DNA of 64,000 bases from Fasciola hepatica (Eukaryota; Platyhelminthes; Trematoda; Plagiorchiida; Fasciolidae): positions 992,001 to 1,056,000 of the forward strand of contig CANUEZ040000140.1 in the NCBI GenBank assembly GCA_948099385.1. The letters run 5' to 3'. Within the stretch, counting starts at the first letter, position 1; each line of letters opens with the position of its first letter. The position numbers and the translations under genes were made by a program. The notes under the pieces were generated by a model. That model had not been told where the DNA came from. It saw nothing but the letters and a program-made list of their open reading frames with translations, and ran no database searches. Below, piece by piece: positions 5,690-47,900 of the stretch.

Positions 5690-6420
5690 CCGGCTTCAAT
5701 AGTCGAAATGCTATGGCTTCTGACGTCATCGGCAACCGCCTGCGTAATGCTATCGCTGTGAGCTGTCTGATCTACAAAGCAAGAAATATCTGTAGTCCTG
5801 ACACGATTGCCCAAGAACTCGAACACATACGTGACACATTATCAAAAAACGGCTATCCAGAACCGTTTATTCAACACATGGGACACACAAAATGAAAGTG
5901 CAAATGGCCAAGAAAAAGGATATTTTTCTAACTGTCCCGTTCAAGGGTGACAAGACCTTAGAAATACCAGAGCTACGCATATCTAAGGCCCTCGGAAAAT
6001 CCTTCCCCGCTGCGCATGTCCGATTCTTAACAAATATCAAGCCTTTCATTGTTCAACATTCCAAGGACAGGTTGCCTCTTCAGTCTCAATCTTTTGTTCT
6101 ATATCAGTTCACGTGCTCTTGTAGTGCATGGTATATTGGACATACGACGAGACGCCTGTCGAAGAGGATATCAGAACGTCTCGGCTTCTTTACGCAAAGG
6201 AACAGTTTGGGCTATCAATAACGCAATCCTACAGCATCTGAGGGATAGCGGACATCAAATCGATAGTGACAGCTTTCAGATTAGTCCTGACAACTCCCAG
6301 GTTTACGCAGCTGCACATATACTATCATTTATCCAGTACTATATATGTAAAACTGGTAATGCCACAAAACGATCCGGCCCTCCACGATCATCCCCCACCG
6401 AAGAACAATAAGCGAGACGT
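5690..6420 (+). mobile_element. Penelope-like element, 3' part with GIY-YIG domain (decayed)
   Basis: This is the C-terminal part of a Penelope-like retroelement polyprotein, which in the family joins a reverse transcriptase to a GIY-YIG endonuclease. A first frame (to about 5,892) carries a segment (LSKNGYPEPFIQ) that matches LLNNDYPERFIQ in the second such element at 20,820-23,215. The next frame carries the endonuclease core YQFTCSCSAWYIGHTTRRL, with the YIG of the GIY-YIG fold. A frameshift near 6,185 moves the reading to a frame with AINNAILQHLRDSGHQID. A further shift near 6,300 leads to the C-terminal SSTIYVKLVMPQ part. The RT part is absent, so the copy is 5'-truncated, and with several frame breaks it is not functional. 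The family call is firm; the edges are approximate. Confidence 0.8.
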
Positions 6421-12017: not shown

Positions 12018-12338
12018 TCAGTAGGCCGTCGTGCGACAACGGTGACAGCCTAACAACCGCAGCGTATCTCCGAATAGGTGTGATTCGAATAGTGCGCTGT
12101 GGTCAGTAGCTACCGTTTCAGGGCATCCGTACAATGAAACCCAAAATTCTTTAAAAGCAGCTGTCACGGTTTCTGTTTCTACAGTGGAAATGGGGACAGC
12201 CTCCAACCAACGGGTGAAACGGTCGACCACGAAAAATTGGCGGCGGAAACCTTTAAAGGGGCTAAGAGGACAATCGATATCCGTATGGATGTGAGGAAAC
12301 CGCGAGGCTACATCTGGAAAGTGGCCTAAAGGGATCAA
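12018..12338 (-). pseudogene. Gypsy integrase catalytic core
   Basis: An open minus frame of about 106 codons contains HIHTDIDCPLSPFKGF, VVDRFTRWLEAVPI, AAFKEFWVSLYGCPETVATD and LGCHRCRTTAY. It holds the first two Asp residues of the D,D-35-E triad (in HTDI and VATD). The frame ends just before the Glu-containing block (normally YHP..NG.VER). The zinc-binding head that should precede it is not in this frame. The family's role is insertion of the DNA copy into the host genome. Confidence 0.8.
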
Positions 12339-12849
12339 TGCAAAACGAGAAAATATAACGTCAACAATACGGCGTTGTCGGCGGAAAAATTATGATTAGC
12401 CGACGGTTCGGCTACCGTGGGTAACCTTGAGAAAGGTGCATCGTTTTTTCAATACACTCCGAACTTCGTTCAGTCCTAGTGTATTGGAGCCAATGTGTCT
12501 ATTTACCATCGATCATTGTCACTGAACATTTGAACGAACCCAATTGCGGATATCCTTTGACATACTGCGCTAGATGTACCTATGTGCACCTAGCTGGGTG
12601 GTGGCTTGCATGCCAGGATGGGTTACATTGTGCGAAACGTTGAAAATCATGCGGCTCCAAGACGTGGGTACGATGGAAGGCGGAAGTGGCAAAGTTAAGT
12701 CACACATTATTGAGCCTGAGGAAGTGGTTAGTGAAACTCCGAAGATTTAAGTGATATGGCTTGACTGAGATCTGTGAAATCCAATTCCTAACGTTGAGTC
12801 GCAGCCATAGCTTCGAGGTCTGTGACATGTGGCTGACTAGAAATAGGGT

Positions 12850-17018: not shown

Positions 17019-18351
17019 TCAACCTCCGGGTGAGATGCAGCTCCCCAGATAACAGAACTTGTCTACTACGTTTATAGTCTCCCCAGACACTGAAAGGTTT
17101 GACGTTGGGCCAACCCAGTCCTGCAACAGCATCTTGCACTTTGAACGTGCAAAACGCATACCGAACACTGCTACGCAATCTCTCGAGCTGTCTAGAAAAG
17201 CTTGCAAATCACGTGAATCTTCACTTAGAAGAACTATGTCGTCCGCATATTCAAGGCGTAGCACTTTTCCACTCCTGGAAAAGTTCAATGACACTATCCT
17301 CACCTGACAAAAGTGCGGACTCTAGGATCATTTCAATCACAAAGAAAAAGACAAAAGGAGAGAGGGGGCAACCCTGACGTACACCACTTCTCGTGGTGAA
17401 CTCGGGTGAAAGATTACCGTAAGCCCGAACTCGGCTCCGGCTGTTAATGTAAAGGGATTTTACGATGGAAATGAATACCTCTGGTACACCCTTCGGCAAG
17501 AGGCAGCGCCAGAGAACTGTGCGGCCAACTGAGTCGAAGGCCGCTTTAAGATCAAGAAAAACGGAGATAGTGGGTCTATAAAAGGTGTGCCTATGTTCTA
17601 AAATTTGTCGAAGAGTGAAGATATGATAAATACAACCTCGACCATGTCTAAACCCAGCTTGATTCTTGAGCGAGCACTGTTCGCGAGCATTAGATAAGCG
17701 GTGGAGAATAACACCAGCGAGCAGTTTGGATACGATGCTAACCAGACTTAATCCATTGTGGTTTTCACAGAAGGATCTATCACCTTTCTTATCAATCGGT
17801 ACGATCACAAATTCACACCAACTCTTTGGAACTCGTCCCCTCTCCCATATCAAACCGAGGAGTTTTGTCAAATCGTGTAAAGGTAGTGGGCCACCGTCTT
17901 TGAAAATAGACGGAGGCAACCCACCTGGTACGGCAACCTTATGTCGTTTAAGATAGCTTACCTCGCGAAGAAGCTCTGTTTCTGACGGAGAACTGGTATC
18001 TACAACAAAGGCTGTGCCCATTGCGCTAGTGAGCAAACCTGAAAAGGATAAAGGCCAATTAAAATGCATCCCAAAATGCTCCGACCAGCGAATTAGACGA
18101 CGCTCCCGAGTTGGAATCAGTGAGATGTTCGCTTCTTTGATCAATTCGCTAACGCCTGGTTTATGTGGACCGGTTTGTCTAATCAGACGAAAAAGGTTGC
18201 AGCTGTTGCCAATCGCAGCAGCCTTTTCCATCTCCCTACACTTCGCAATCCACCACTGCTCACGATCATTTCTCAGGCTCCGAAACAGTTGGCGTTTAAG
18301 GCATCCCGGTGCCTCATCGGATCTGGAATCCGGAGGAATCGTTTTGCGCAC
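17019..18351 (-). pseudogene. LINE reverse transcriptase (frameshifted)
   Basis: A 366-codon minus frame (18,351-17,251) carries KRHKVAVPGGLPPSIFKDGG, GFRHGRGCIYHIFTLRQI, LDLKAAFDSVGRTVLWRCL and [12 protein letters not shown], the ordered RT motifs of non-LTR elements. The frame then shifts near 17,270-17,300, and an overlapping frame (17,303-17,019) continues with LRLEYADDIVLLSED. The YADD catalytic box is therefore present but out of frame with the first half. CKMLLQDWVGP and DKFCYLGSCIS follow. The single shift between the conserved blocks makes this copy a pseudogene. Confidence 0.85.
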
Positions 18352-19008
18352 ATCTAACAGTGCAACTTAGGATGCAGTTATCCATCGTTTCTGTGTGTGT
18401 CTAGTTGTTGGACCTTGGGTAGCACCAGAAGAGCCTGTTTGATTCCCGTCCATTACTCTTCTGGATCCTGCACATTTGGCTGCGTCGATAACTTGATGGA
18501 TACTTCTGTTCCGAAAGCAGATCGATGGTTATCGTCCAGTAGCAGCTGCGGCGGACGGTTCGCTTTGGCGTTGTGTCGGCCACCAACAGGGCGCAAGCTG
18601 AACGTGATCAGTGTCTACAGACGTGGACCAAAATGATCGACAGTCGATCCGAGTCCAACGCTGTGAAGACGCGGGAGGACGCTTTTTGTGCGAGAAATTT
18701 GTACTCGCTAGGAATATTCTATGGTCGGAACATAGTTGAATGAGTCGATCACCGTTATCAGTTCCATCGGCTGGAACGCAATATCAGCCTGCCATATTCC
18801 TCTTCGTCTCGTCTAGGCTTCCGACTTGAGCATTGAAATCACAAGCAACAACCATGATGTTCGCAGAGCTCACGCTACGGAGCAATTGAGACAAATCCTG
18901 GTAGAGTTCGTCTTTAGTCTCAGGAGAGCTAGTCAGTTGGGGCATACACAGAAACGACTAACAGGCATCGGCGCTTCAGTCCAGTGCTGTTGACATGCAC
19001 AGAACCAT

Positions 19009-22269: not shown

Positions 22270-22710
22270 GTGCAAACCAATTTAGATGATGTATCACGCG
22301 AATTCAACACTACGCACTCCGCAATCAGGTTCACCACCGAAATGGAAGAAGAAAACTGCCTACCGTTCCTTGATGTACACTTAACCAGACGACCTTATGG
22401 CTCGATCCAGACGAATGTGTATCGGAAAGCGACCTGGAATGGCCAGTGCACAAACTTTCACAGTTTTGTGCAACTTGGTTACAAACGTAATCTGATACGC
22501 TGTATTCTGCACAGGACGAAACATATCCGCAGTGCAGACACTCTGGAGGCCGATCTATCGTACATAAGAAATACGCTGCTTAACAACGATTATCCTGAGA
22601 GATTCATCCAAAGAAACTGGACTGCACGGATAAAACCTGCGAGAATCACACAGGCAGAAAAGAAAGTGCTATTCATCCGATTCCCCTTAAAGAGATATCG
22701 CAGCCGATAG
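22270..22710 (+). pseudogene. Penelope RT C-terminal region
   Basis: An open frame of about 146 codons follows directly from the YVDD box. It contains CLPFLDVHLTRRPYGSIQTN, VYRKATWNGQCTNFHSFVQ and the spacer LEADLSYIRNTLLNNDYPE. This is the post-catalytic part of Penelope RT and the linker to the endonuclease. It is among the best-kept segments of the element and can be aligned with the linker at 5,740-5,880. Confidence 0.8.
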
Positions 22711-22721
22711 TCTGTAAAATT

Positions 22722-23213
22722 TTGAGTGCCACGGTGAAGTCCACCTTCAACACCGCCAAGATCAGACGCGTGTTTTCCACGTCAGCATTAATCCGATGTG
22801 AAAATGAAGATAAACTACTCCTGCTGACCTCATCCATGATCATCTATCAATTCAGATGCACCTGTGGTGTTACTTACATAGGCCGAACGGCAAGACAGCT
22901 ATCAAAACGCATCAAAAAGCATCACCCACGATGGCTTAGACACGGAGGCAATGAAGTAGTATCAAGTTCAATCGTCGAGCACTTGGTAGAAAATGGGCAT
23001 TCAATCGACAACCAGTCTTCTTTCAAAGTCGTCTACCGGATCCCACAACACGTGTCAAGAGCAATTAGGCTCCGGACACTAGCAACTGCCGAGGCAATTA
23101 TCATCCGCCTCTCGATGCCTGAGCTTGGTGTGAAGCGAAAATTAGTCCAAGTACTACAACTCCCATGGCTAACAGTCAACTGTGTTATACAGCAAGGCGC
23201 AGCGGTGACGTAA
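22722..23213 (+). pseudogene. Penelope GIY-YIG endonuclease
   Basis: The frame holds YQFRCTCGVTYIGRTARQLS, the GIY-YIG core of Penelope-like elements with a CxCG pair, then the SSSIVEHLVENGHSIDNQSS block and a LRTLATAEAIIIRLSMP end with the conserved E of the family. The domain cuts target DNA. The frame is open throughout these ~160 codons but lies in a different frame from the RT part upstream (which ends at 22,710), so the fusion is broken. Confidence 0.85.
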
Positions 23214-26303: not shown

Positions 26304-26914
26304 CTAGGAAGTTGTACCCCGGTTGGTGGGGCCACGCCTCGCTGGTCCATGTGAATGATCCTCTTCTTCCTCGTCATCATCTTCATCCCCGCCACCGGCG
26401 CTGCAACTATCCAGATCATCAGCATTCATGTCGTCGCCGTCGTATTCGCCATCAGCATCATCATCATCATCATCATCATCTAAAACGACGGCTGGTCGAC
26501 ATGACTGTTGCGAGTCACATCTGATCGACACGTCCGAGTAAATGCGTTGTGTCGTAGTGCGACCAGTGTCAGTCGGATCCATGATGTTATTGGTAAGGAT
26601 AGGCTGCGGTGAACATCCGGAGCCGTACCAGCCAGTCCCATCTGTAGTGGATCCAACAGAAGTGAAGTTCAAAGATTGTAAATGTGATGCATGATGATGA
26701 TGCGAGGGTTGTGCGTGATGAACCACGTGAGATGAAGTACTAGGACCATAGGAAGAGTCATCTGTAAGATTGGGTCCCGTAGAACTATAGTTCGGTGGGA
26801 CACAAAGATCTCCGGGGACAGAATCTGCCAGCGACATAAGCAGTGAGCCTGCTTGATGGTCCAGTTCTGCCATATGCCCCGACGGTGCTCCTGAGGCCAT
26901 TGAATCACCATACA
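26304..26914 (-). CDS. E-protein last coding exon with acidic tail
   Basis: The exon opens after acceptor GATTCCCTTTTTCCAG and encodes 203 codons including TAG. It begins [20 protein letters not shown], with a His-rich stretch (PSHHHHASH), and later has DDDDDDDD and EDDDEEEED close to the C-terminus, ending PTNRGTTS. The acidic run comes from a GAT-type triplet repeat, so its length may vary. Vertebrate E-proteins lack such a tail. A plus-strand frame rich in His (26,300-26,524) is the shadow of these Asp codons. Confidence 0.8.
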
Positions 26915-29900
26915 CTGGAAAAAGGGAATCACGAAAGAACGAAGCCCAATTCATCTGATGTGTTCACGAATAGCAATGTGAGAGGATTGAACTCACTAAT
27001 GGCGGAACCGGTTTAGCAAAAGAACAAGTAATGAGAATTAAAGAGATTAGCTAAACGACCTGAAAACGACAAGAAAACGTGTGATTTGAAACCCAAGTAG
27101 TTGCACTGTTTTTGTGTGTTAAACTTCGTGCCCAAAAGTTCTAAATGAAAACTAATTCTACTAAGTGCCTGAGCGAAACCTAGTGGTAACGCAAGTTATC
27201 TTCGATAAGTTTGCATTTATCATCGTGAACTTAGGAACCTCAAAATTAACGGTGAGAGACGCGCAGGACTGATTCAGTTTGCATTTCACCAGCTGGTAAT
27301 AAACAATAGACTGCTTTCCAAAGATAATGCCCCACAGAAATCATAGGTAATGCGTGATGTTCTTTCGCACAGCTTAGACCTAATAGCTGGGCATTCAGTT
27401 GTCCCATGAGTGGAATAGTCTGATCGCAAACAAGCCATTGCCGTCCGAGGCATCGTCGTCAAAGCTTAGGCGGTGGTATGATCTAATAATTGATTACTTA
27501 AAATCAGAAAACGATGCGGTTTGAAATCCAAATAAACAGCGAGAACATCAAAAGTCAGGAATTTCAAATTTATGGGATTCATGAGGTGAGATTTGCGTTG
27601 TAACACACCGTTTGGTGGTGGAATCACGGGGACGCGTAGATCATAGCTCACGTTCGGTGTGAAACCTGGTCCTAGTGCTCCGGAGATCGAACTAATTGGA
27701 CCGATCGAGGTGGTGGTCGTACTGGTTGTGGCGGAGGTGGATGTGCCCGGATGAGCACTGCCGGCCCCGAATCCTATGTTAGTCCCGGTTCCCGAGCTGG
27801 AACCAGAGAGCCGCGGTATGCCAAGACCAGTAGTATGATTGGAACTGCCCGCGGGGCTGTTGAAATGATTCTCACTTTTCTCTTCCTCGCGCCTCTTCAA
27901 ACAGGCTTGTTTCGGATTCAAATTGCGCTCTGGATGGGATGAGTAATGTACAGAAAATGATGACCAGGAGACTGAGTCAATGATTGGACTCGGTGTCCGT
28001 AGTGAGATGCATCTAAAAGTGCTCCTAACATGCAACAGCTGTGGGATGCGAAAAACTCTTGACGAGCAGATGGGCCTTGTTTAGGCAACAGTGAAAGCAC
28101 AGAAGATCATGAAACCTGCTCAATAAAGTACTGGGTTTTATTCGACAATTCGAAACAAACTGACGAGAACGGATCAAATCGCATCAACCTGCATGTAATA
28201 TAGCGTCCATGGATGAAGATGATCAACCAAAACTAGACGAATAACCCATGAAATTCATTGCGATTATTCAAACGAATCATAGGGTGAAGTCCACTGCTAA
28301 ACTTTGGTTGATTATGAACTAAAAGTGCAAATGTCAGGCTCAGAATGAATTACACAAATACTAAAATGGCAACAAAGTGAATCCGCAAGGGCAAACACTG
28401 GGTAAACGTTTGAGATTATGAAAAGCATGTGGGTTTGGCAAACAGCCTACACACTACACTTTGGTCTTTACTCGTTGAGGTCATATACAATACCTCCTTA
28501 AAAATGACATAAGATGCATGTCCTACGACCACAAGGACTCATAAGACTATGGGGTAGGACCGGCAACCATGAACCTAATAGGAGAATCACGCGGGGTCCC
28601 ACATCTGGCGCATAAACGGCCTACATAGTAGCGTGATTCTCTCCATTACCAAAGTTCCTGTTTTTTCCTTCGAGAAACGTCTGAGTTAGAGTAATTTATA
28701 AGGTTCTTTAAGTTTAGAGGAAGTCTCAAATCATGTGCACGCCAGATTGATCATATCGCAGTAAGCTACCAGTGGTACAGTTCTGTTCAGTACTGTAGAT
28801 CTTACTGGTCCACGTACGTAGAGTTGGACCACGCATTAGTTTTAGTGCGATTATCTCTGCAGCGCCATGGCCATCGACGCAAACCGCAAACCCGGTTAGC
28901 CGTATAGCGTTTGTCTGATCCAGAAGTTCACACCAGTTATGAACAGAAGTTAGCACATGAGCTAGGATCCACGACGAACAGTAATGAAGATGAGCATTGG
29001 GCCCAGCAGGAAATACACGTGGCAGCAGGTTTCGCCTGTGTTCCCAGATCCGATGTCCACCAAAGACACTGGATTTCGCAGGAGTCGATCAGGCTAACAG
29101 AGAAAAAGCGTCAGCTTTCGAACTGTAAGGAGATGAATTAGATATGAAGAAAGCTACAAAGGCAAGTTACGAAAAGCCTTAAGAAGGATCGCAAAAATTG
29201 GTGGGTCAATGTAACCGAAGAAATGGAAATAGCAGCTGCTTCAGGTAACAGTCAAAGACTGCACAAACTTATTCATGACACCGGTGGACGGCGGACCCAG
29301 GTCAGTGAAACGATATACGATAGGAATGGAGAGCCTATTCATAGCAAAGAACAAAGTCTCGACCGTTGAGCCGAATACTTCGAGGAACAGTATAGCTGGC
29401 CGCGCTCTCATGTAGTTATTCCGGCGTCAACAACTGCGATTCCTTGGGGAGTATCACGTGAACCTCCATCGGAAGTAGAAGTAGAGTCGTGCATTCGATT
29501 ACCGAAGCGAGGTAAAGCGGTCGGTCCTGACAAGCTACCTCCAGTTCTTTTCAAAAAGGGTGGTGGTGCACTGATAAAATCAATTGCCACCTTGGTCCGT
29601 GACGTTTGGAAGGAAGAACGTATCCCGCTATTATGGGGTGAGTCATTGATTACACCCATCTTCAAAAAGGGAATACGCAATGAATGTAGTAATCATCGTG
29701 GGATTAGTTTAATTCCAATAGTCACCAGGGCATTAGCCTAGATTTTGCTGCGTCGTCTCACACCGGCTCGCAAGAGGAAGGCCCAAGAACAACAGGCCGG
29801 ATTTCGTCCAGGTCGGGGATGCATTGACCGGATTTTTACTGTTAGTCAATTACCGGAGGTGCGTCAAGCACACTGCCGACCGACAATACTGGTTTTCCTC

Positions 29901-32900
29901 GACCTGGAAGGCGCCTTCGATTCAGTTGACCGGACGGCGCTATTCAATGCTCTTCACCGGAAAGATATGCCCCAGAAGTTGGTAAATCTACTGACGTTAT
30001 ACTCTCATACTTTTGACCGCGTGAAGGTTTACGGTGAGCTATCCAGTCGGTTCAAAACGACCAGTGGTGTTCGACAGGGATGCCCTTTGTCTCCATTCCT
30101 TTTTAACTTCGTCGTGGACGAAATAATGGAGAGTGCTTTGCAAAATCTTCAGGATGTAGGCGTCGAACTAGGAGATAGTGACAAGCTATGTGACCTAGAT
30201 TACGCAGACGACGTTGTCTGCTTGTTCGAATGCACGGAACATGTTCAGCGTGCACCAGATAACCTCGCAAGAGCTGTTGTTCCATTCAGCATGGACTTTG
30301 CACCTTCAAGGTGTCAAGTGATGTTGCATGACTGGACGCCAACGATTCTGAGCTTGATGATCGATGGGAAGGAACTAATAATTGTTGACTGCTTTAGTTA
30401 CGTCGGAAGCAGCGTGACGACAGATGGGAGCACTGTAGTAGAGGTGAGCACGCGGATATCCAAGGCTCGAGCGGCGTACGCTTGACTGAAGCACTTGTGG
30501 CGCCGACCTGATTTTTCACTAAAGTCGAAAGGTCGTGTGCACCGTACCGCAGTGAGTTCAGTTTTGTTGAATGGTTGCGAGACTTGAGGTCTGCGTGTGG
30601 AAGATCTTCATCGTCTTGAGGTTTTCGACCACCAATGCTTGCGTAGTACCGCCAAGATTAGATGGAATGACCGAGTAAGCAACGATGAGGTCAGAAAGCG
30701 AGTACTGGGTACCACTTCGGGGAGTTCTCTACCACAGCGTATACAGCTTAGTAGACTTCGCTGGTTGGGACACGTGTTACGTATGGCAAACACACGTCTA
30801 CCATACCGTGTCTTATTCTCCGTTCCTCCTAGGGGGTGGAAGAAACCACGTGGAGGTCAACAGATGACGTGGCAATGAGCAATGGAAAATGTACAGCAAA
30901 CTTAGGAAAAGTAGGTGCTTCACGTCTTCGTGGTTGGGGTCCAAAAGATCCCTCAACCAGTTGACTGGAGACAATGAAGGATATGACAGCGAACCGCGAG
31001 CAGTGGCGATCGTGTTGTCACTTTCTATTGAATCAGAATGACTGATCGATGTGCGTTTGTACAGTTAGACTGTGTATTCCGTGTGCTGGCTACTAGAGCG
31101 TTCTTTCCTTTTCCCATTTGTGTAGGTCTACTCCCCGTCCATCTTGCACATTCATACTTTCTAATTCATCATGCAAAATCGTGAGAAAGGTAGTGATCAG
31201 TGGGGCTTGCTCTACTGTTTGATGCTGTACGATGATGGTCATGATGATGCGCTCGCCTTTCAATGTTCAGTGTATTTGCCAGGTAAACCACATTCTTAAG
31301 ACCGCTTCAGTATGGTGAAAAGGTATCCGTGAGGAGTAGCAACTCCGAGTTGGTAGGTTCCCGTGTCCCCTGGATTATTTTCCATTTTTTGGTCTCCACC
31401 ATTTGCCCAAATCCCTTCTGTGGCTCCACAAAGCCAAGGCATGCATCAACAGCTAAACCCGGGCAAAACAGCGTGAGAGGCGGATTAAACCAGGTGGAGG
31501 GTAACCAAGGCTTAAAAACCTCAGTGAGATGGTGCCCAGAAGGCGAAGATGGATATCCCTACAAACGCAGACGGGATTTATTGGATTCAAAGACTACCAA
31601 GGAAATTCGTCTAATCAACAGGGTTGCATAGACCCCCGGGCCATGATCACTTCTATTGAATGACGAATGGGCTCCTAGAGAGCCACTGGTAACCATGCAC
31701 AAAGATCACTTGGACATATTAGGCATTCCTGATTGGTAGATCACCATTCAAAAGGCGTATAAGCCACTCGATCGGTCACCGGCTCCCAACACAAAAACTT
31801 CCTATTGTCCGGCAGGTGGCTTGGCTGTGCTCGGGGTAGAGGTGCCATCTCGAACAAAAAGCCGAGTGACGCTGAGGACGCCCCTTCGAACACTATTCCC
31901 AAGTCTTTACGTGCATTTTGTCACCACAATTAGCTCTGATCATGTCACGGCGTCCCCAGTAAGCGACGCACCGTGCTCCCCCAATGGCAGGGGTGATCCA
32001 AGCACGAGTTGGGAACCTAAACCTGAAGACAAGGTCACGAGTCCACGTAGCCTGCTGGAACGTGGAAACTCTTCTAGATGCAGGTAGCCAGTGCATTACC
32101 ATGCACACACTCTACGATCATATAATTGAGGTAGCTCGTCCATTCGAAGTACGCCTACTCAACTCCGACAACCGCCATATTTAAGTCCCTCAAACGGACG
32201 CATCCTACTGGATGTACCACAGTGGGTCAGTAGATAATTTTGGACTTCATGGAGTTGCGATCGCAATGAACAGTCGAGCTCATAATGCCCTGGTCACTTA
32301 GAAAGTAGTTTCTTCAAGAATTGTCGTGGCACGATTCAGGAGAACTCCATTTAACGCGACTGTGATTACAGTCTAGGCCCCAACACTACATGCTGAACCA
32401 ACCACTAAAGATGTCTTCGACAGTGAACTTGAGAATTCAGTCAATCGGAGTCCCAGGCGCGGTATTCCGCTAATTGCAGGAGATTGGAAGGCCCGCACGG
32501 AACCAGCAAACGAGTATACCCAACACGCACTGGGGACATTCAACCTCGCCCAGCGATGTGAAAATGGCGACCGCCTGGTCACGTTTCCAAGCCTTAATCG
32601 ACTGGTCGACAATAATATCTGCTTCCAACACCTAAAAAGGCACCTGCTGACTTACTACTCTAACGACTGTAGGACAGCGCACAAAAGCGACTACATCTTG
32701 GTGCGTTCTCACTGAGAATCATCGGTCGAGAACTATCGGGTATAACGGGGCGGCGTAACGGGGATCGCCAAGGGCACAGACCACAGTGGTATGCGCTCAC
32801 CTCAAGTTTCACCTTTTAGTACGATAAAAATTTCGTCCTCACTGCAGAGTAGGTACTTTTGAGCTAACAATCCCGGACAACGTTCAAGCCCTGTCAAACG

Positions 32901-35900
32901 CGATTCCATCCAGGCTAACTGCGATCGATGAGCATGGCAGCGCAGATGGACAATGGACGGAGCTGAAAGTATCCATCACCAGAGCCTCCCTTGGACAATT
33001 AAGCAGAGCAAAGTGGTACAGGCAAGATTGAATCTCTGCAGAAACCTTAAACCGCTGCGTTAAGACTAGGGACGAGACTATCACAACCTTCTCCGAAAAG
33101 CTACACACTCAGCGAAGAGCGACCGTAAACGATATTGGTCTGAAATTGCAGACCGGATGAAAACGGCAGCCGCTGTTGGACTTTGGGAAGCTTTTCTGAC
33201 TCATCCGCTCCTCTTCGAGGGAGATGCGACCTCCTCCTTCCATGCTACGCGATGGTAGACGACACCTCATATCGAGCTATGAACAGCTTCAACGATGGGT
33301 CGAACACTTCAGTCAGCTGCTCAACTGCTCACCATCCAATCCGTGTAACAGCATTAGGCGACAGAGAACAATGTCCAATCGACCTCGAGCCTCTCAACGA
33401 ATCGAAAGTCGTCGTCGCCGTTCAGGCGATGAAAAACAAGAAGTCATCTGGGGATGATGGCATCCCACCCGAGATCTTCAAATCCTGTTTGCCAATTCTA
33501 TTGGACCCTATAAGTATGCCATTCCGTCGTATCTAGGACATCGAAGTTTTTCCCAAAAACTGGGGAATCTCTATCCTACTCCCTACACGAAAAAGGGTGA
33601 CAAGACTGTCTCCGCGAACTATAGAGTCATCGATAAAGCGGTTAAGCATCTTGTGACCATCCTGCTAAACCGCTCTGTTGCTGTTCGGGATGCGCGAACA
33701 CGCTTTAACTAGTGTGGTTTTCGTCCAGGAAGAGGTTATGTTGACCAGATCTTCATGTCACAGCGAATTCCAGAACATCGCTATACATTTTAGCAACCCA
33801 CCACAATGTGCTTCATTGACTTTCGGGCAGCATTCGATTCCATTGACAGGAAGTCACTCTGGAGTGCACTGCGAAGCGACGGAAGACTCGAAAAGTATAT
33901 CAGAAAGTTAGGATCGTAAAACTCGGCAAGTCGGCGCGTCCGCCCTTACGGCGAAGAGTTTTCAGAGCTGCAATCGGCTCTGGGGTCCGCCAAGGACGCC
34001 CTCTATCACCAGTCCTATTTAGCTACACTACCGATGGGCCGAGTACTTCAAGGAACAGTTTAGCTGGCCGCTTGCTAGTGCAGTTACTCCCGTGTCAACA
34101 ACTGTGACTCCTTGGGTGCTATCACTTGAGCCCCCATCAGAAGTACAAGTAGAGTCATGTATTCGATTACTAAGGTGGGGGAAAAACGGCAGGTCCCGAC
34201 GAAATTCCTCCAATTCTTTTCAAACTGGATGGTGAGGAGTTGATAAAATCACTTACCGCCATGCTCGTGACATTTAAAACGAGGAGCGTATTCCGTTAAT
34301 ATGGAGTGAGTCATTGATTGCTCCCATCTTCAAGAACGGAATACGCAATGACTGTAGTAATCATCGTGGGATTAGCTTAATCCCGATAGTCACCAAAGTA
34401 TTAGCTTTGATTTTGCTGCATCGTCTTACACCGGCTCGTGAGAGGAATGCCCGCGAACAGCAGGCTGGATTCCGCCCAGGTCGAGGATGCATCGACCAGA
34501 TTTTTACTCTTCGCCGACTACTTGAAACGCGTCACATGCACCGCCGACCGACAACAATGCTTTTCTTAGACTTGAAAGGCGCCTTCGATTCAGTTGATCG
34601 AACATCGCTTTTCAGTGTTCGTCATCGAAAAGGTATGCCCCAGAAGTTCGTGAACCTAATGAGATCATTGTATTCTCATACTTCTGGCCGCGTTAGGGTT
34701 TACGGTGAACTATCCGGTCGGTTCGAAACGACCAGTTGTGTTCGACAGGGATGCCCTTTGTCTCCATTCCTGTTCAACTTCGTCATGGACGAAATAATGG
34801 AGAATGCGCTGCAAAATCCTCAGGATGTAGGCGTTGAACTAGGAAATAGTGAAAAGCTATGTGACCTAGATTACGCGGACGACGTTGTCTGCTTGTTCGA
34901 ATGCACGGAACATGCTCAGCGTGCACTAGATAATCTCGCAAGAGCTGTAGCTCCATTCGGCATGGACTTTGCACCTTCAAAGTGCAAGGTGATGTTACAA
35001 GACTGGACGTCAACAATTCCGAGCTTGATGCTCGATGGTGAGGTGTTGTCAGTTGTCGACCACTTCACCTACCTCGGTAGCTGCGTGACGACAGATGGGA
35101 GCACTGTAGTAGAGGTGACCACGCGGATATCCAAGGCTCGAGCGGCGTACGCTGGACTGAAGCACTTGTGGCGTCGATCTGATATTTCACTGAAGTTGAA
35201 AGGCCGTGTATACTGTGCCGCAGTGCGTTCAGTTTTGTTGTATGGTTGCGAAACTTGGAGTCTGCGTGCTGAAGATATTCGTCGTCTTGAGGTTTTCGAC
35301 CATCGATCTTTACGTAGTATCGCTGGGATTGGGTGGAATAGCCGAGTAAGCAACGATGAGGTCAGAAAGCGAGTACTGGGTACCACTTCGGGGAGTTCTC
35401 TACCACAGCGTATACAGCTTAGTAGACTTCGCTGGTTGGGACACGTGTTACGTATGGCAAACACACGTCTACCATACCGTGTCTTATTCTCCGTTCCTCC
35501 TAGGGGGTGGAAGAAACCACGTGGAGGTCAACAGATGACGTGGCAATGAGCAATGGAAAATGTACAGCAAACTTAGGAAAAGTAGGTGCTTCACGTCTTC
35601 GTGGTTGGGGTCCAAAAGATCCCTCAACCAGTTGACTGGAGACACTGACGGATATGACAGCGAACCGCGAGCAGTGGCGATCGTGTTGTCACTTTCTATC
35701 GAATCAGAATGACTGATCGATGTGCGTTTGTACAGTTAGACTGTGTATTCCGTGTGCTGGCTACTAGAGCGTTCTTTCCTTTTCCCATTTGTGTAGGTCC
35801 ACTCCCTGTCCATCTTGTATATCCATACTTTCTAATTCAACGTGCAACATGGTGAGAAAGGCAGTGGTCAGTGGGGTTGCCCTACTGTTTAACGCTGCAC

Positions 35901-38900
35901 GATGATGATGATGAAACTGGATAATGCGCCGCGAACTCAACAACTTTAGAGGAATACAATCCGGCCATTATTCTTAGGTTACAGACCTAAAATTCACCGA
36001 CACTGTAATCCTAGGACAGAATCCCTGAACTCTGCAGTCGGTTATCGACCATATTGTATATGGAGCCGAGGCTGTTGACCAAAAGAAAAACACTACAATA
36101 GCGAGATCCTTCACGACTTCACAAGGCGCAACACGCTCCATACGCGCCAGCGGCGGAACTCTGGAACAGGTGCATCAGTTCAAGCGCTTAGGTTCTACCA
36201 CCCAGTCAAACAACCAGGTCAAGGATGAGGTTAAACTTCGTGTAGACGACGCAAGGAGACCGTTCTTGAAGCCTCGCAAAAAATTGTGGTCACGCAGCGA
36301 AATAAGCCTCCACACGAAGCTACGCATATATACCAAGCTGCTGTTTTTCCAGTCATTACGTACGCGTGCGAAACATGGCCGTTGAGGGTATACGATACAA
36401 AAAAAAACTGGAAAGCTTCGGTCACTGATGTCGCCGCTATATAGCCAAAATCAAGTGGTATGATCGCGTCTCAAACTCCCCTGTGCAAATACAGAACGAC
36501 TTTCTTCGTCCCTCCGACGACGTCGCCTACAGTAGTTCGGTCATGTCCTTCACCGGCCCAAAACGAAAGCTACGAAGAGGAGCTCATTTCCATCAACCTG
36601 CTCAGGCTGGAAATGTTGTCTTAGAGACCAAATGAAGACATGGATTAGCGCTATTAAAGCACATATGGATCGCCTAGGCCTCTAGTCTGTCTTCAGAGTA
36701 CGCAACCGGCGCAACAACTGAATTTTATGGTGTGCAAATCTTCCCGTAGACCGTAACGCGTGGACAGCTACCATCAGGGACACCCAAGAAGCCGACGTAT
36801 CCTCTTGCGGGAAATAGTCGCATAAAAGTAAAAAGCAGAAGTTCAGTAAAGTGAATAGATACACCTGAAGGACTGTAGAACAGATACAAAGCACAAGCGT
36901 CTCGTTGTGTTATAGTTCCTGTCACAAGCGTACAAGCTGCTTAGCCAAGGATATTCTAAAAAAGGTCCAGACCGTGATCACGTACATTGTGGTAAGTGGT
37001 GTTTAGAATCAATTTTTCTACAGGTCTGCTTCTGTGTTCTGTTTTCATCGTGCTTTCCCATGTGTGCGTCACAATATTTATTGAGAACTGTGTCCGGTAC
37101 TGAAGATTTTCGGTATGGAAATCACGTCGGCATGGGTTAGACATAACAGCATAGATACGAATTATTAATTTACAAGCAAGTGCGAAATCAGTAATCGCAA
37201 ACGTATGTAAGCTGTTCTCTTGATGATTGTTTACGGTAATGTCTAACAAAATTGGAAGACCTAGATGCTTTTGGAGTGAAGGTAGGACTCGAGCTTCAGT
37301 CAGAAACGAAAGATCAATTCCCGAAAATGAATACAAAAAAACAGCAGTCCATATGGACTACAGTGACGAAAAATATATGAACTGAACTGAATGAACTCTT
37401 GATCATTAGGATGCTTTGAGAACTCAGAAGTGATCAAGTAAAAAGCGGACTAAGATTACTCTTTTCAGATGATCGTGCGAAGCCATTCCAAATAAACGAC
37501 GATCCAAATCACGCCTTAAAAACAAGACTGAAAAACTAGTCGAAGAGGGACAGGATGCGGACAACTTACCTCGAACTTGTTGCTCTAAACTGGTAATCAA
37601 CGTAACTGCCTGCTGCAAAATGGTCAATTTGGTCTGTTGACGTTCACTGTTCAGATGCATCATGCACATGCGACCCAGTTCTTTGAACGCATCATTGATA
37701 TCACGAACCCGGATACTGTGAGGGATGGTGATAGAGCAGAAGACGCGAGGCGAGTGGGCAGGCGCGTGCACGTACGTTCAGAAGCAAAGAATTGTGGTTG
37801 GAACCGAGCGCAGGGGGGATAGAAGAGGGGATAAGGGACATGTCAATCAATGGATGCATGCACTACTCAGTTTGCATAAACCAAAGTGTGCCGATCGAAC
37901 ATGAACAGGTACTAGGCACCATGCAGAAAGCAATGAACGAAACGAATTTGAGAAAAAGAAATACCAGATCACAGAGTCTGTTCAAAGTGATACCCGGCGA
38001 TACTAAACAGAAGTTATCCAGCTGAATGGTGATAAAATGGGTGTACGGACGGCAATGGAAGTTACAACCGAATGGAGGACGATAGCTAACCTCGTACATG
38101 ATGTTCCAAACTGGTGATCACAGTCACCGCTTGCTGCAGAATCATCAGTTTGGTAAGCGGCTGACTATTACCGGTGTGCAAGTTAATCATCTGACCCAAT
38201 TCTTTAAACGCATCGTTGATCTCTCGTACACGGAGACTGGACACAAGCCAAGACAGTCGTAAGGGAAAGAGGGTGGGAAGGTGAATGTGATAAATAATTG
38301 GTATAAATTAACAAAAACCAAGGCTGAACGGAAGCAACAGGATCACTTCGAATGGATCCAAGGACGCGTGCTTTCACGTGATAATAAGTTTCACAAGGGC
38401 TCATGGGAAAACAGATCCACTGTATTTGTTTGACAATTTCGCAACAACAAAATAAGAAAGCTTAGGTACACGTTCTGACAAATACTACGAGTTGGTTGAT
38501 GAATATCCAGTACATTAAACTGGGATAATCAGCTTTGTATTATTGCGTCTTGTCAGTGGATGAAAATGGCAAAAAAATTGTCTCAGAAACGTAGGGATGA
38601 ATGTTTTGAAACGAACCAAACGTATGAACCTATCAAATGATTAGCCATTTGATGAAGCAGAAAAATTACAGGAAAACAAGGGATGAATTCCAAACTTGTC
38701 TCAATTCGGGGTCGGTTAGGGAGTCTACGTAAACACTAAATGAGACACTACGAACGCAGGGACAGGGAAGTAAAACACAAATGCACAAGCACTGACGACC
38801 TCGGTAATTCTTTTAACTGAGCCAATGGGTTATGCGGTCAATTTCTGTTACAACACAGTCGGTTCAATGCAACCACTTTGTTTATTTGGGCTAGGCAGTA

Positions 38901-41900
38901 CAAACTGACAATGAGATAATGGGAAGGAAAGCATAAACAGGTACTGAAGTGAGACGACACTTCTCAAGTGAACACTAGATCGGCAAAAAAGGTCTCTGTT
39001 TGAAGCGCATCTAGAAAAGAAACTGTGCTAATGGTTAGTCAAAAACGAAGTATTTACCGACCGATGTTTAAGGACTACATGTGATCGATCGTTCAAGAGA
39101 ACAAATATCATTCATTGGTGAGTGATATTCCTCACTACCGAAAGACATTCTGAATGACCCTTTTCTAAATCTTTCTGTATCATCATCATCATCATCATCA
39201 TCGTACAGTGTTAAACAGCAGGGCAAGCTCCACTGACCGCTGCTTTCTCGCCATGCTTTTTTTACATGCTTGTGCATGGAACGGGTATGCACCCCATGGC
39301 CACGAAGGCTCACCGCACTATCTGGTATAAGCGGCAACCAGACCCTGAGACTTGGAGTGGAGAACCACATAAGGCCCCAATAGGTCAGGTGTGGTAACGA
39401 TTCGGACGACAGTGAAATGCTGTCTATCACCAAAGTAATCGGTGGTGGCGTGGATTCGAACCTGGGACCTCCGAGGTGGTAATCAAACGTTCTAACCCAC
39501 TCGACCACCACGCATGAATGTGGCAGAAGGGTCAGATGTCGTAGCCACAAAGGCCCATTGTATCAGTAAACAGAAAAGTCAAACATGGTTGGGAATGGAC
39601 AACCACATGGAGACGTAGTAACCAATCCGTATCCGTACTTACCGTTCGCGAGCGTTGTTCGCTTGTCGTCTGTTACGTTCACGTTCTGCCTTTTGTTCGG
39701 GTGTCTCGTCCGGATCAATCGTCTCCTCCGAGTCCGTACCACATAGACTGGGAGTTTGACCGTGACCAAAACCACGACTCAATGCTTCAAAATCCCCGAA
39801 CAGGGAAGAGGAACACTCGGAGCCTAGACCAGAGACCAGGGAGCTTAGTGCAGTTCCAGTGGTCATGTCCGTATGTTGACGATGATCTGGGCCTGGGTTT
39901 GCTGAGGAAAGAGATGATGAAGCACGTCGTTTGTGTCCAGCCACACGACTACTTCGAGCTGTGCGGCCGACCAAAGCACTGTTCACGTTGCCCCCCGAAT
40001 TGGAAGCCGCAGTAACGGAGGCCGTCGCAACTGTCGCAACTCCTGATGTTGATGAGACGGAATGCGCGAACGAAGTCGAGGAATGTACGTGAAGCATACT
40101 TGAAACCGGCGCGGATCCGTCCACGTCATCCACGCCAGAACCTGAAAAGATGAGGCAGAGATAGATAAAAAAAGTTAACTTGAAAAGCGCAAACAGCGAC
40201 GAATAAATGGTTGATGTTTAGCCTGAACATAATACCAATCAATGATATGAAACACGATAAAATGGCTGTGGTGAGACGGATTCACTCGGAAAATCGATGG
40301 ATGAAAAGCTCTCTTATTCGAATGATAACGAAATTACATTCTGCAAATGGCGCTTTCATAACGTAAGGATGCTTCACTAAAAAAACAGAGGACAGGAAGA
40401 ATTTTGAAACAAGGGTGTATTTAAGCAAAGGGACCTTTTAACACCAAGTACCCGCGATAGTGGATGGACGCAAAAAACGACGGAGAAACGATACAAAAGA
40501 GTTCAATAAACACAAAATTCAAATTTTTCATCCAATTGCTTGGTATCCTTCTGGCTGTAGGCGACAGGTCAGCTATGAATCCGGCGCAACAACACACATT
40601 TCATGATTAGTCTTGGAGTAAGTAGCTCGATTACTGGCATTGTCGGTCCTTCGCATTGGGGATCAAGATATTTACCTACTGAAGTTAACAGCTATCACAA
40701 TGATTACAACGCTCGATTGATTTCCTTTCTCCGAGGCATCTACTCCCTCTTAGTTTATCAGATTAAGTAATTTCCGGTTGCGTTCTACTACAAGATACCA
40801 AACGAAATGAGATTTCGTGTGTGATTTTAGGGACTGGCAACAATAACCAAAATTCCTAAGCGAATTGAGATTTTAAATTTATATAGCTGTAACGTCGGTC
40901 CTGTGCAATACTTTGCCCCGCACCCAATTTTTCCATAGATGTCCGCGATTCCATTTTCAAAAAATGGGGTTACGTAAACGGAAAAAAAACTTCGATCAGA
41001 TGTTTTTCACGTTGCAATAAAAAGCGAGCGACGTAACTGGACATAGAACAGCAACTGCATAAAGTATCCCATTAACTTACCAACAACAGAGAGGAGAGCG
41101 TCTCTGGAGCAACCAGTCATATCGGTGGAGAAGTGTCCCCCAGCCCCACCCTAGAAGAAAAATGAACAGAGTAAGATTTAGACTAAATGAGGTAGGGAAG
41201 GGACTCATATAAGATGTCAGGATTGCAAATGTGGTACCCAATAGCGATCACAAAGCCTAGTAACCATATCAGATCACAGCGACTTCAAGCTGTCAACCTG
41301 TCTCATTTGCATTATAATACTACGACTCGTGGACGGTCCCCAGTCCATCTGTTCGCCACCGACCCCGACAAGTCATCGAGTGATCCAATCAGCATACACT
41401 CAGAGCACTTCGCGTGCAGTTTATGTTTATGATCAAAGAACAAAGGGGGGGGGGGGGTCCAGTTTCGCGCGATAAGAGAAGACAAAACTAGACAGGTCAA
41501 ATATAGATAAACTCTAGCGGCGTGGGTGATCGACTGACAATTACCACGTTTCACGTTGATCAAGTGTGGGGGGAAACGCTAAAGTGAATCGTAACAGTGA
41601 GAGAGAGAGGAACAAGGACGAAATCATGTCGAACACGTGTGATCCAAGATAGATCCGATGATCGTATTCACCACTTATGAGTGACTTGGTGCATTGATAA
41701 TCAGAATAGCTCGAGAAGACAGTGCAACACAATGATCCTGATCATCTATCCGGCACCTTAGGGAGGTCAGCATAGCACATCGAAGCAGAAGTGAAATTCC
41801 CATACTCCCGACTAAGACGATATAGACAGCTTATGGTGAGGAACTAGAAAGAATTTTTAGTTTCTTGGTCTCATGTCCCCAGTCCTACGATAAGAATATA

Positions 41901-44900: not shown

Positions 44901-47900
44901 ACCTCAGCAACCATACAGCAAATTGGTCTGGTAGTAAAAAAGGCACAGAACGCGGAATTGAAACTTAAGAGTGACACTGTGTTCTGCGGGATGCATGAGA
45001 GACAGATGATGACAACGGGAAACGGTATTATTCATTATGGAGTTGTAGTTGTAAGTTCCAGTATTATACATGGGCACAGTTATCACAACGGATAACAGGA
45101 TTTCTTACTTGTCCCATCTGCTGGGCGAGTGGCACTTGGATGAACCGATGAGCTTGGCAAATTGGCACCGTTTACAGTGGCACATGAACGGAGTTGACTC
45201 AACGGATAGACGGAAGAACCAACACTGGGATAGGGACCGGACGACTATGTGAAAGGTGAGTGAGAAATATGACCGAATGGTGAAGATTAACAAACCAGTA
45301 GTGTGTACAAGTGTATCGAGCCCAAGCCGTTAACTACCAGAAGAGTTCAACAGAAAAACAGGTGAAATAAACAGTGACCAAGCGAAACGCGGGTGGCAAT
45401 GCGTCAAATGAATGGAAGACCGAGACTAAAGAAGGAGATAACACACTCGAATACTATGACACGACGAAACAAACAAAAATACAATAAAAGAATTCTGCAG
45501 AACGTATCTTATATACATTCGACGGTTTTGAAGGTGTTTGACCAGACACCAGAATGGACCGGGTTATGTGGCCCATAACCCCTTACGTTTTTTGGTATAT
45601 GTTTGCACATCAGTGTAGTGGAAGGGCTATGTCCCATAACCTCAAAGGCCACTGTACTGTTAAAGAGGGTCAGCAACCAGACCCCGGAACTTGGAGTGAA
45701 GAATCACATAGGGTCTCAATAGGTCAGACGAGGTAACGAGCAGGACGACAGTGGATTACTGTCTACCACTACGGTGACTTGTAGTGATTCAAATAACCTC
45801 AAAGAGTGTGTGACGGAGAGGCAAAATCAACTGAGAATGCATTCGGTGGGTTCATCGTGTCACAGGAGACCTGTAAAAACAGCATAGTGCTGAATCAGGA
45901 ACGTAACATAGGACACAGATTTAGACTATCCATTACTGGATCTAAATTACTATAAAAGACAGATTCCAGTAAAGTTACAAATAATAGACTAACAGAGAAA
46001 ACATGAATTCAGGAACAAAAACGATTCAGTAGGCAAACAATTGCAGCCACCAGCTGACTCCGAGCTGGCCGGCTGTGGCAAAAACTGCCACCATGATTAG
46101 CCTCAAACTTGGAGGTCCCACGCTTGAATCCTGCCGCTGCCGACCATTTCTCTTTCGGCAGCCTTTAACTGACCGCGACCCCATTCCTAAACAAATAAGC
46201 TCCGAAAACAACCGACCAGAAAAAGCGAAATGACAAACAAAAGCAAACCCACAGACAATCATGCCAAGTAAATGAGGAGTGGAACTGGCGGTATGATCAA
46301 TCGGCAATGTGGGTAGGTAAAAATAACTCACCAAGTGCACAGACGGGTGTAAATTATGGCTGTGAGATTGTAAATTTGACTGGAGATCAGCGTTGCCGGA
46401 TAATGGAAAATTTGACGAGGTCCCACCACTGTGTGGAAGGAAACCAGGAAGCATATGAACGGAAGATAATCCCGTCGAGGTTGTGGTGTTGGTATTGGTT
46501 CCCGGTGCTGGGTTCCGCATAGAGGCGGACCACATATTGTTAGATGAGGAGGCGGACGATGATGACGATGAGGAGGAAGTTGATGAAGAAGATCCATTAG
46601 CACACGCACCGGAAGCGTCTACCAATCCAAAATGAGCAGCAGTCGCGTGTTGAAAGGAAGAAAAAGTAGATCACAGAAATTGACAATCTGTGGTGAAAAT
46701 GATTCGTGGAATGGTATTCATCACACTGAATCGAAAGCAGTAAAAAGGAGGAATATCGTATTCGTCAGCTAACAAACATGTACGTTGTGCCAACCGAATA
46801 ACTCATTTCTAAGCGACCAGCATCAAAGTATTTCACCGCCTATGTTCAAAAAAATAATCCTCATTCATAAGAGTGCTCGTTCTAAAAACAGTACTGGATT
46901 CGCTGTCTTCTGGATATCCAAACTGATTCACTAAATGGTTTTTATTTGAGAACAGAGTCTAAGAACAAGAGCATTTTTATTCTATATTTGTTAATATACG
47001 CATGCGCACGAGTGGTAACGGAAGGAGTATGCAACATAATCTCAAAGGTCCAGTGCCTTATTAAGGGCAGTCGGCAACCAGACCTTGAGATATGGAGTGA
47101 ACCACGTAAGGTCCCAAGAGATCAGGTGTGGCAGCGAGTCGGACGACAGTAGATTACTGTCTATCACCAAAGTGACCGGGGGTGGCGAGATTCGAACCTC
47201 TGACCTCCGAGGTGGTAAGCAAACGCTCTGAATCACTCGACCACTACCGGTTGATATCATGCTACTGTCAACCAACAGCCGCATAGAAAATTCTTAAAAA
47301 CAAGCAGTGAATTACCGTGGGTATATTAAGTACGAAACAGAGTGAGTATCCCTGTCATCATCACCATCCGCGGTAGTAGCAGCAGTGACACTGCGCAACA
47401 AGAGGCAGTGAAGCGAACTTCACGAAACGTTGTGTTGCTCATCATTGACTTGTCCCAACCAGTGGTGTTTATTTGATGTGGCCCAAGGAGATAACCCGTT
47501 CTATGGTGAAACAAATACATGAAGCATCACCTCACTATGACTAACCTCGTTTTATTTCGGCCTTGATAGAGTTCATGGTCAGTGGTCTAAATTTCTGACT
47601 ACACCGCACTTGCGATTGCTCCTCAGGTGAATAGAGGTAATAGAGAGTACAAAGGTACAAACACGCCTTTAACAAAAGATAAGACGCAATGAAATTCGCT
47701 CAACGATGAGAATGTTGAGTAAACGGAAAGATTTTAGGCTATAATAATGGCAGAATAAATGAAAAAGCAGATTTTGAACTTAAGATGTCAAAAATCTTTT
47801 GAGAACATTATTAGGAGACGCATCGGAAAATTTAGTCAGCTTGAAAGTCGGTTATTTATGCATATTATACTATTCCAAGATGAAATCCACGAGATCCCGT

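Follow-up and report, generated by a model that had tools for sequence, protein, structure and literature searches.

Two neighbouring exons in the window (the whole stretch of 64,000 nucleotides of Fasciola hepatica DNA that was analysed) are best explained as mutually exclusive exons of an E-protein gene, which pre-date the split of flatworms, annelids, nemerteans and molluscs and whose products would read the same E-boxes but differ in dimerisation; we put the probability of this whole explanation at roughly four in five. The two exons, called e1 and e2 here, each encode a full helix-loop-helix (HLH) domain that fits one shared basic region. This agrees with the original prediction, in that both frames are open and the two versions score 50.5 and 45.2 bits against the Pfam HLH model, for which the cut-off is 20.7. 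Judged by frame, splice sites and relatives, the pair is a real and conserved set of either/or HLH exons. The parts of the locus, in the order of transcription, are as follows.

39643..40141, minus strand: exon f, a common exon that ends inside the basic region (frame, splice sites, tblastn matches)
38237..39642, minus strand: f-e1 intron, with a SINE-like, tRNA-like piece at about 39441-39511
38091..38236, minus strand: alternative exon e1, 146 nt, divergent HLH (frame, splice sites, Pfam, tree)
37716..38090, minus strand: e1-e2 intron, 375 nt
37570..37715, minus strand: alternative exon e2, 146 nt, E47-like HLH (frame, splice sites, Pfam, PDB matches)
27930..37569, minus strand: e2-g intron, 9.6 kb, with reverse-transcriptase ORFs on the plus strand
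27609..27929, minus strand: exon g, a common exon after the HLH (frame, tblastn matches)
26304..26914, minus strand: probable last exon, in phase with g and ending in a stop (C-terminal similarity to proteins P0243 and P0242)

Joining f, e1 and g, or f, e2 and g, gives an open reading frame in both cases, and joining e1 to e2, or skipping both, leads to a stop codon that starts 53 or 55 nt past the junction. Since each exon is 146 nt long, only transcripts with exactly one of the two stay in frame. Thus, the claim that the exons exclude one another is borne out by the reading frame, which is predicted to enforce the exclusion at the least. All four exons f, e1, e2 and g carry an AG acceptor and a GT donor, the donors being gttagc for e1 and gtaagt for e2. 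Under a simple matrix, the splice sites of e1 are weaker than those of e2 and close to those of the common exon g (acceptor 3.6 versus 4.0, donor 2.4 versus 3.0). The locus therefore displays what marks a mutually exclusive pair, namely adjacency, similarity, equal length and phase, the presence of splice sites, and double inclusion or skipping that is non-productive because of early stops. In tblastn comparisons, f is covered by E-proteins of Paragonimus, Schistosoma mansoni and others, and those of Paragonimus, S. mansoni, cestodes and a mollusc can be matched one exon after another to f, e1 or e2, and g.

The two exons agree at 98 of 146 bases and 32 of 49 residues, which matches the predicted share of about two thirds, as do the common length, phase and intact AG/GT sites. 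When e2 is slid without gaps over both strands of the window, e1 is the best match at 98 of 146, the runner-up reaches 62, and the mean is about 37 (sd 5.3); this margin rules out a chance resemblance. The 48 base differences fall on codon positions 1, 2 and 3 as 10 of 49, 11 of 48 and 27 of 49, an excess at third positions (27 of 48 differences, p 0.0009), and dN is 0.26 against a dS of about 2.9, which is near saturation. By these measures, e1 and e2 are two old coding copies that both appear to be under purifying selection.

Residue conservation in relatives rules out that e1 is a dead relic exon. Its product matches that of Protopolystoma at 45 of 48 residues, Taenia solium at 45, Schistosoma rodhaini at 44 and Macrostomum at 37. 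The e2 product is identical to that of Clonorchis across 48 residues and matches S. mansoni at 45 of 48, Mesocestoides at 43, Macrostomum at 36 and T. solium at 37, the T. solium row ending in mis-modelled residues. As far as these comparisons go, e1 is conserved about as well as e2. The gene itself is, by its encoded domains, an E-protein (class I bHLH; TCF3/4/12, daughterless), as had been proposed: besides the Pfam HLH matches, the top PDB matches of the two versions are E2-alpha and TCF4, and exon g encodes the conserved E-protein motif that follows the HLH. The F. hepatica protein P0242 has 84% identity over the scored region, with its E-protein parts permuted (f, e2, g and last exon, then the upstream parts) and its basic region altered. 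It is perhaps a rearranged retrocopy of an e2 mRNA.

The introns of the locus may point to regulation. An AG-free zone extends for 85 nt before the acceptor of e1 and for 145 nt before that of e2, compared with 35-40 nt for f, g and the last exon; in composition-matched shuffles the corresponding p-values are 0.059 (e1) and 0.011 (e2). The zone ahead of e2, within the e1-e2 intron, holds several UCUU/UUCU motifs, and the only YTRAY sites in the last 185 nt of this intron lie 128 and 132 nt before e2. Such long zones suggest distant branch points and regulation through the pyrimidine tract, and we infer that the use of e1 and e2 is regulated in F. hepatica. Steric exclusion is thought unlikely, as the e1-e2 intron is 375 nt long.

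Mobile-element remains accompany these introns. A tRNA-like B-box, GGAGGTCCCAGGTTCGAATCC, lies at 39452-39472 (minus), 46111-46131 (plus) and 47188-47208 (minus) of the window, as one exact copy and two with 3 mismatches, where shuffles give an expectation of 0; the copies look like a tRNA-derived SINE. ARAGORN found no tRNA, and Rfam gave no match on window positions 36000-41000. By Pfam, the ORFs at 34278-35549 (plus), 29742-30485 (plus), 17251-18366 (minus) and 12018-12389 (minus) comprise three RVT_1 ORFs and one integrase-core match just under the cut-off, the two on the plus strand lying within the 9.6-kb e2-g intron. Two further ORFs, at 5835-6221 (plus) and 22599-23213 (plus), carry the YIG-type motifs WYIGHTTRRLSKR and TYIGRTARQLSKR. 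These motifs are reminiscent of the endonuclease end of Penelope-like elements, and Pfam returned no match to a Penelope-like endonuclease for either ORF.

To place the pair among its relatives, we used 276 different proteins from three protein searches (the best 120 of 6160, 262 and 5889 matches), drawn from a database that is clustered at 90% identity and might therefore hide isoforms of full-length proteins. Five residues served to call the e1 type; only top-scoring entries are covered, so that a group with no listed e1 is not thereby a group that lacks it. Among the 276, 78 are of e1 type, 193 hold other types only, four are intermediate and one, the mollusc protein P0076, has no anchor for typing. 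The intermediate proteins (P0200, P0219, P0234 and P0238) have an HLH with RTKLMILHDAV and two or three of the five e1 marks, and were omitted from the tree. By source name, the listed e1-type proteins come from the trematode S. rodhaini (P0252), the cestodes T. solium, T. asiatica, Hydatigera, Echinococcus and Schistocephalus, the monogeneans Protopolystoma and Cichlidogyrus, Macrostomum, the annelids Lamellibrachia, Ridgeia and Dimorphilus, the nemertean Tubulanus and many molluscs. Types other than e1 are listed for vertebrate- and arthropod-named entries, 17 rotifer-named entries, a bryozoan, Capitella and Helobdella, and 12 other trematode-named entries carry e2 (P0242 in altered form). 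A scan of viral contigs with the e1 protein gave 44 pattern matches, none of which encodes a relative.

Among the listed proteins, 45 of 276 hold at least two HLHs (44 found by sequence pattern, plus P0032, which the pattern missed). We regard such tandem models as the product of gene prediction across alternative exons that lie side by side; they reveal order and boundary, not expression. In 31 of the 45, an NNxRE basic end comes with the second copy itself; these comprise 29 vertebrate models (E12-like plus E47-like), the fish TCF4 P0001 and the beetle Popillia P0034. In the other 14, the second copy has no such end. A search for both exons in the same gene of other flatworms, as had been advised, succeeded: e1 followed by e2 is present in Echinococcus, T. 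solium, Schistocephalus and Macrostomum, as well as in P0235 and the annelid Lamellibrachia, with the second copy beginning at or beside the ARE/R boundary. In the Cichlidogyrus model, e1 is followed by a later part that is truncated, while Pinctada and two Magallana entries have two or three e1-like copies in tandem, and Homarus, Hyalella, Darwinula and a barnacle have two non-e1 copies.

Related arrangements occur in several other models. Crustacean proteins of daughterless type (P0038, P0040, P0063, P0085 and P0173) have tandem HLH copies at the ARE/R boundary, and Armadillidium P0173 joins the first-copy type to ERNLNPK. The insect E-protein models P0178 and P0179 (Spodoptera) and P0034 (Popillia) contain two copies of the basic region, ANNVRE and ANNARE; in Spodoptera both precede a single HLH, so that the other half of the domain is the one duplicated. 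An exon-like insert with a second NNDRE/NNARE end just before the HLH is present in P0058 and P0105 (Mizuhopecten isoforms X3 and X2) and in P0117 (Haliotis cracherodii X9).

Annotated isoforms and joined proteins bear on how the copies may be used. In Ostrea edulis, isoforms X30 and X29 are both 736 aa long and are the same outside 10 residues, which all fall between ARE/R and ERNLNP; X19 and X18 differ in the same manner. As annotated, these pairs represent either/or use at the ARE/R boundary. The e1 type is joined directly to ERN(L/M)NP in 66 of the 78 e1-type proteins listed, and proteins that join f, e2 and g also occur, for example P0243. No direct join of e1 to ERNLNP occurs among the 10 listed e1 entries that are flatworm or flatworm-like. 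For one and the same gene, the S. rodhaini entry P0252 carries e1 and that of S. curassoni carries e2. After e1, P0252, which has 8 member sequences, ends in VR-VLLDISMLS and a stop rather than in ERNLNPK, an ending that differs from the VRG read-through ends of several other flatworm models.

These endings bear on whether flatworm e1 yields a full-length protein. One could suppose that it is a truncating exon that leads to an alternative end without the ERNLNPK C-terminal part, and hence to a different or dominant-negative form, as P0252 and the missing e1-ERNLNP junction among the listed flatworm entries would suggest. We consider this quite unlikely, given that the e1 donor in the window is intact and in phase with g, that many mollusc and annelid entries have the e1-ERNLNP form, and that the ending of P0252 may be an artefact of the gene model. 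Least credible to us is a role for e1, or for double inclusion, as a poison exon that lowers E-protein through nonsense-mediated decay and has no protein of its own. Although the early stops on double inclusion and double skipping would suit such a role, e1 alone keeps the frame, its protein agrees at 44-45 of 48 residues with three other parasitic flatworms, and synonymous change relative to e2 is near saturation.

The age of the pair was addressed with a tree of 50 hand-picked rows (47 distinct) over 48 residue columns (IQ-TREE, LG+C20), which is limited by the small number of columns and by a bootstrap that, according to a program warning, had not fully settled. One clade holds all 23 e1 rows (support 100/96), and the flatworm e1 rows form a group within it (94/92). 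Because the rows had been sorted into e1 and e2 by eye from marker residues, a control tree was run without columns 23-31, which hold the marker block, and without four rows that were gappy or had long branches; the e1 clade is retained there (100/94). Flatworm e2 rows are not one group, with Macrostomum e2 standing beside Helobdella on a long branch, and E12 and E47 group with TCF4/TCF12 (92/87). Approximately unbiased (AU) tests did not reject e1 with E12 (p 0.10), e1 with E47 (p 0.28), e1 with crustacean A (p 0.09) or crustacean A with B (p 0.22). A spiralian e1/e2 pair is recognizable by an e1 with a non-basic residue 571, Gln581, Leu583 and Met587 that precedes e2, and this is what is found here. 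As far as the tree and the order of exons tell, the pair is probably older than the divergence of flatworms, annelids, nemerteans and molluscs.

The original prediction had suggested that the pair could be an independent duplication within flatworms, convergent with vertebrate E12/E47, and this part is not supported. The different exon boundary in vertebrate TCF3 speaks for it, as does the control tree, in which a flatworm clade survives the test at the 0.05 level (p 0.065). However, flatworm e1 groups with the e1 type common to annelids, a nemertean and molluscs rather than with flatworm e2, constraining flatworm e1 and e2 together is rejected in the full tree (AU p 0.00095), the e1 clade persists in the control, and the Lamellibrachia model places e1 ahead of e2, as the flatworm gene does, with the same boundary. 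We therefore judge a flatworm-specific origin to be very improbable. An older origin, in which one bilaterian or protostome duplication underlies e1/e2, the crustacean A/B copies and perhaps E12/E47, with the boundary changed later, seems unlikely to us. The crustacean tandem HLHs share the boundary, and the three AU tests that join e1 to E12, E47 or crustacean A would allow it, but the E12, E47 and crustacean tree rows share no residue with the e1 rows at the five marker columns, and E12 and E47 side with TCF4/TCF12. The different exon boundary likewise favours independence of the spiralian pair from vertebrate E12/E47. We prefer an origin of e1/e2 ahead of the flatworm, annelid, nemertean and mollusc split.

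The exchange of e1 for e2 affects a defined part of the protein. In E47 numbering, taken from our own alignment to the residue numbers of PMC8283981, the swap starts at residue 557. The predicted constant basic region and swapped HLH stand, with the boundary at ARE/R, except that the DNA-contacting Arg558 lies inside the swapped exon; it is present in both copies. By the same alignment, both versions have the E-box contact residues Glu555, Arg556, Arg558, Asn563 and Lys585, and both keep the His576/Glu600 pair. Five columns tell all 23 e1 rows apart from the other 27 rows: in e1, Arg/Lys571 is replaced by other residues, Asp/Glu580 by Gly, Asn, Ser or Thr, Lys/Arg581 by Gln, Gln/Val583 by Leu, and residue 587 is Met. 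The e1 of F. hepatica has no Arg571, Lys581, Gln583 or Cys573, the last of which is present in e2. Cys573 reportedly (Benezra, 1994) matters for disulfide-linked homodimers, and the word 'disulfide' was not found in two reviews looked through for this idea. Passages of PMC8283981 describe a hydrogen-bond network in the E47 HLH (Gln574-Lys581, Gly570-Gln583, Gln583-Gln591), a homodimer bond His576-Glu600, and Glu568-Arg571 among the salt bridges of the E2A-Id1 dimer. The same passages list D561E among Burkitt lymphoma missense mutations of E47; neodermatan e1 has Glu561.

According to our proposed mechanism, the common part would supply most of the E-box-reading basic region, and the swapped exon would supply helix 1, the loop and helix 2. 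In E47, Arg571 (as partner of Glu568), Lys581 and Gln583 help to hold these elements together, and all three are absent from e1. With the contacts kept and residues 571, 581, 583 and 573 lost in e1, the two forms should therefore read the same E-boxes and behave differently as dimers. Most likely, the swap leaves contact with the E-box intact and changes those contacts of the loop and helix 1 on which dimer stability and the choice of partner depend. The two forms would differ in homodimer stability, in their proneural or myogenic partners, or in the response to Id-type antagonists. The different partner choice raised in the original prediction is plausible from the residues exchanged.

A wider reading is offered only tentatively. 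Its two parts, taken jointly, are that an old intron at ARE/R split the bHLH into a DNA-reading and a dimerisation splice module that were duplicated repeatedly across animals, and that e1 provides a second code for dimerisation, one that is not subject to Id-type inhibition or to E-protein homodimerisation. Spiralians (with the ancient e1/e2 pair and the three oyster copies) and crustaceans would have duplicated the HLH module, insects (ANNVRE/ANNARE) and scallops (ANNARE/ANNDRE) the basic module, and vertebrates both together. If e1 were such a code, splicing would let each cell decide by which rules its E-protein pairs.

Proneural and myogenic factors, like other tissue bHLH factors, share the E-proteins as a partner, and a single E-protein gene seems to be all that many invertebrates have. 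If the pair has been kept since the ancestor of flatworms, molluscs and annelids, spiralians would diversify this hub by splicing, where vertebrates do so by gene duplication and E12/E47. The pair also allows a clean test, with one basic region and two dimerisation surfaces in animals that have stem-cell systems and genetic tools. It carries a warning as well, in that gene models in these animals can err at this site by fusing both exons or dropping one.

Several known systems resemble the pair. Bivalve TCF4/12-like isoforms (Ostrea X29/X30) swap the HLH part at the same boundary and are otherwise identical, and the Magallana model K1QGM5 has three tandem e1-like HLHs. The oyster copies found are all of e1 type, unlike the e1/e2 pair, although an e2 copy could have been missed there because the queries were of e1 type. 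Crustacean daughterless-type genes (Homarus, Hyalella, Darwinula and a barnacle) have two tandem HLHs, the second without its own basic region, but neither copy is of e1 type. Mutually exclusive clusters in general are tandem arrays of exons that resemble one another in sequence and length, and double inclusion often shifts the frame, according to parts of a human atlas (PMC5740500) that name TCF3 and contain no invertebrate E-protein pair. Among the open-access titles and abstract openings listed, none describes an HLH exon pair in an invertebrate E-protein. A well-known parallel is vertebrate TCF3 (E2A), whose exons 18A and 18B, for E12 and E47, are likewise either/or bHLH exons before ERNLNPK (parts of PMC12585103). 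As had been predicted, the boundary differs: in TCF3, as in the 29 vertebrate tandem models, the second copy includes its own basic region, whereas here the swap begins at ARE/R and the exchanged exon leaves most of the basic region outside; the vertebrate tree rows also differ from e1 at the five marker columns. The flatworm pair is thus a new variation on the E12/E47 theme, in which the dimerisation half is swapped alone.
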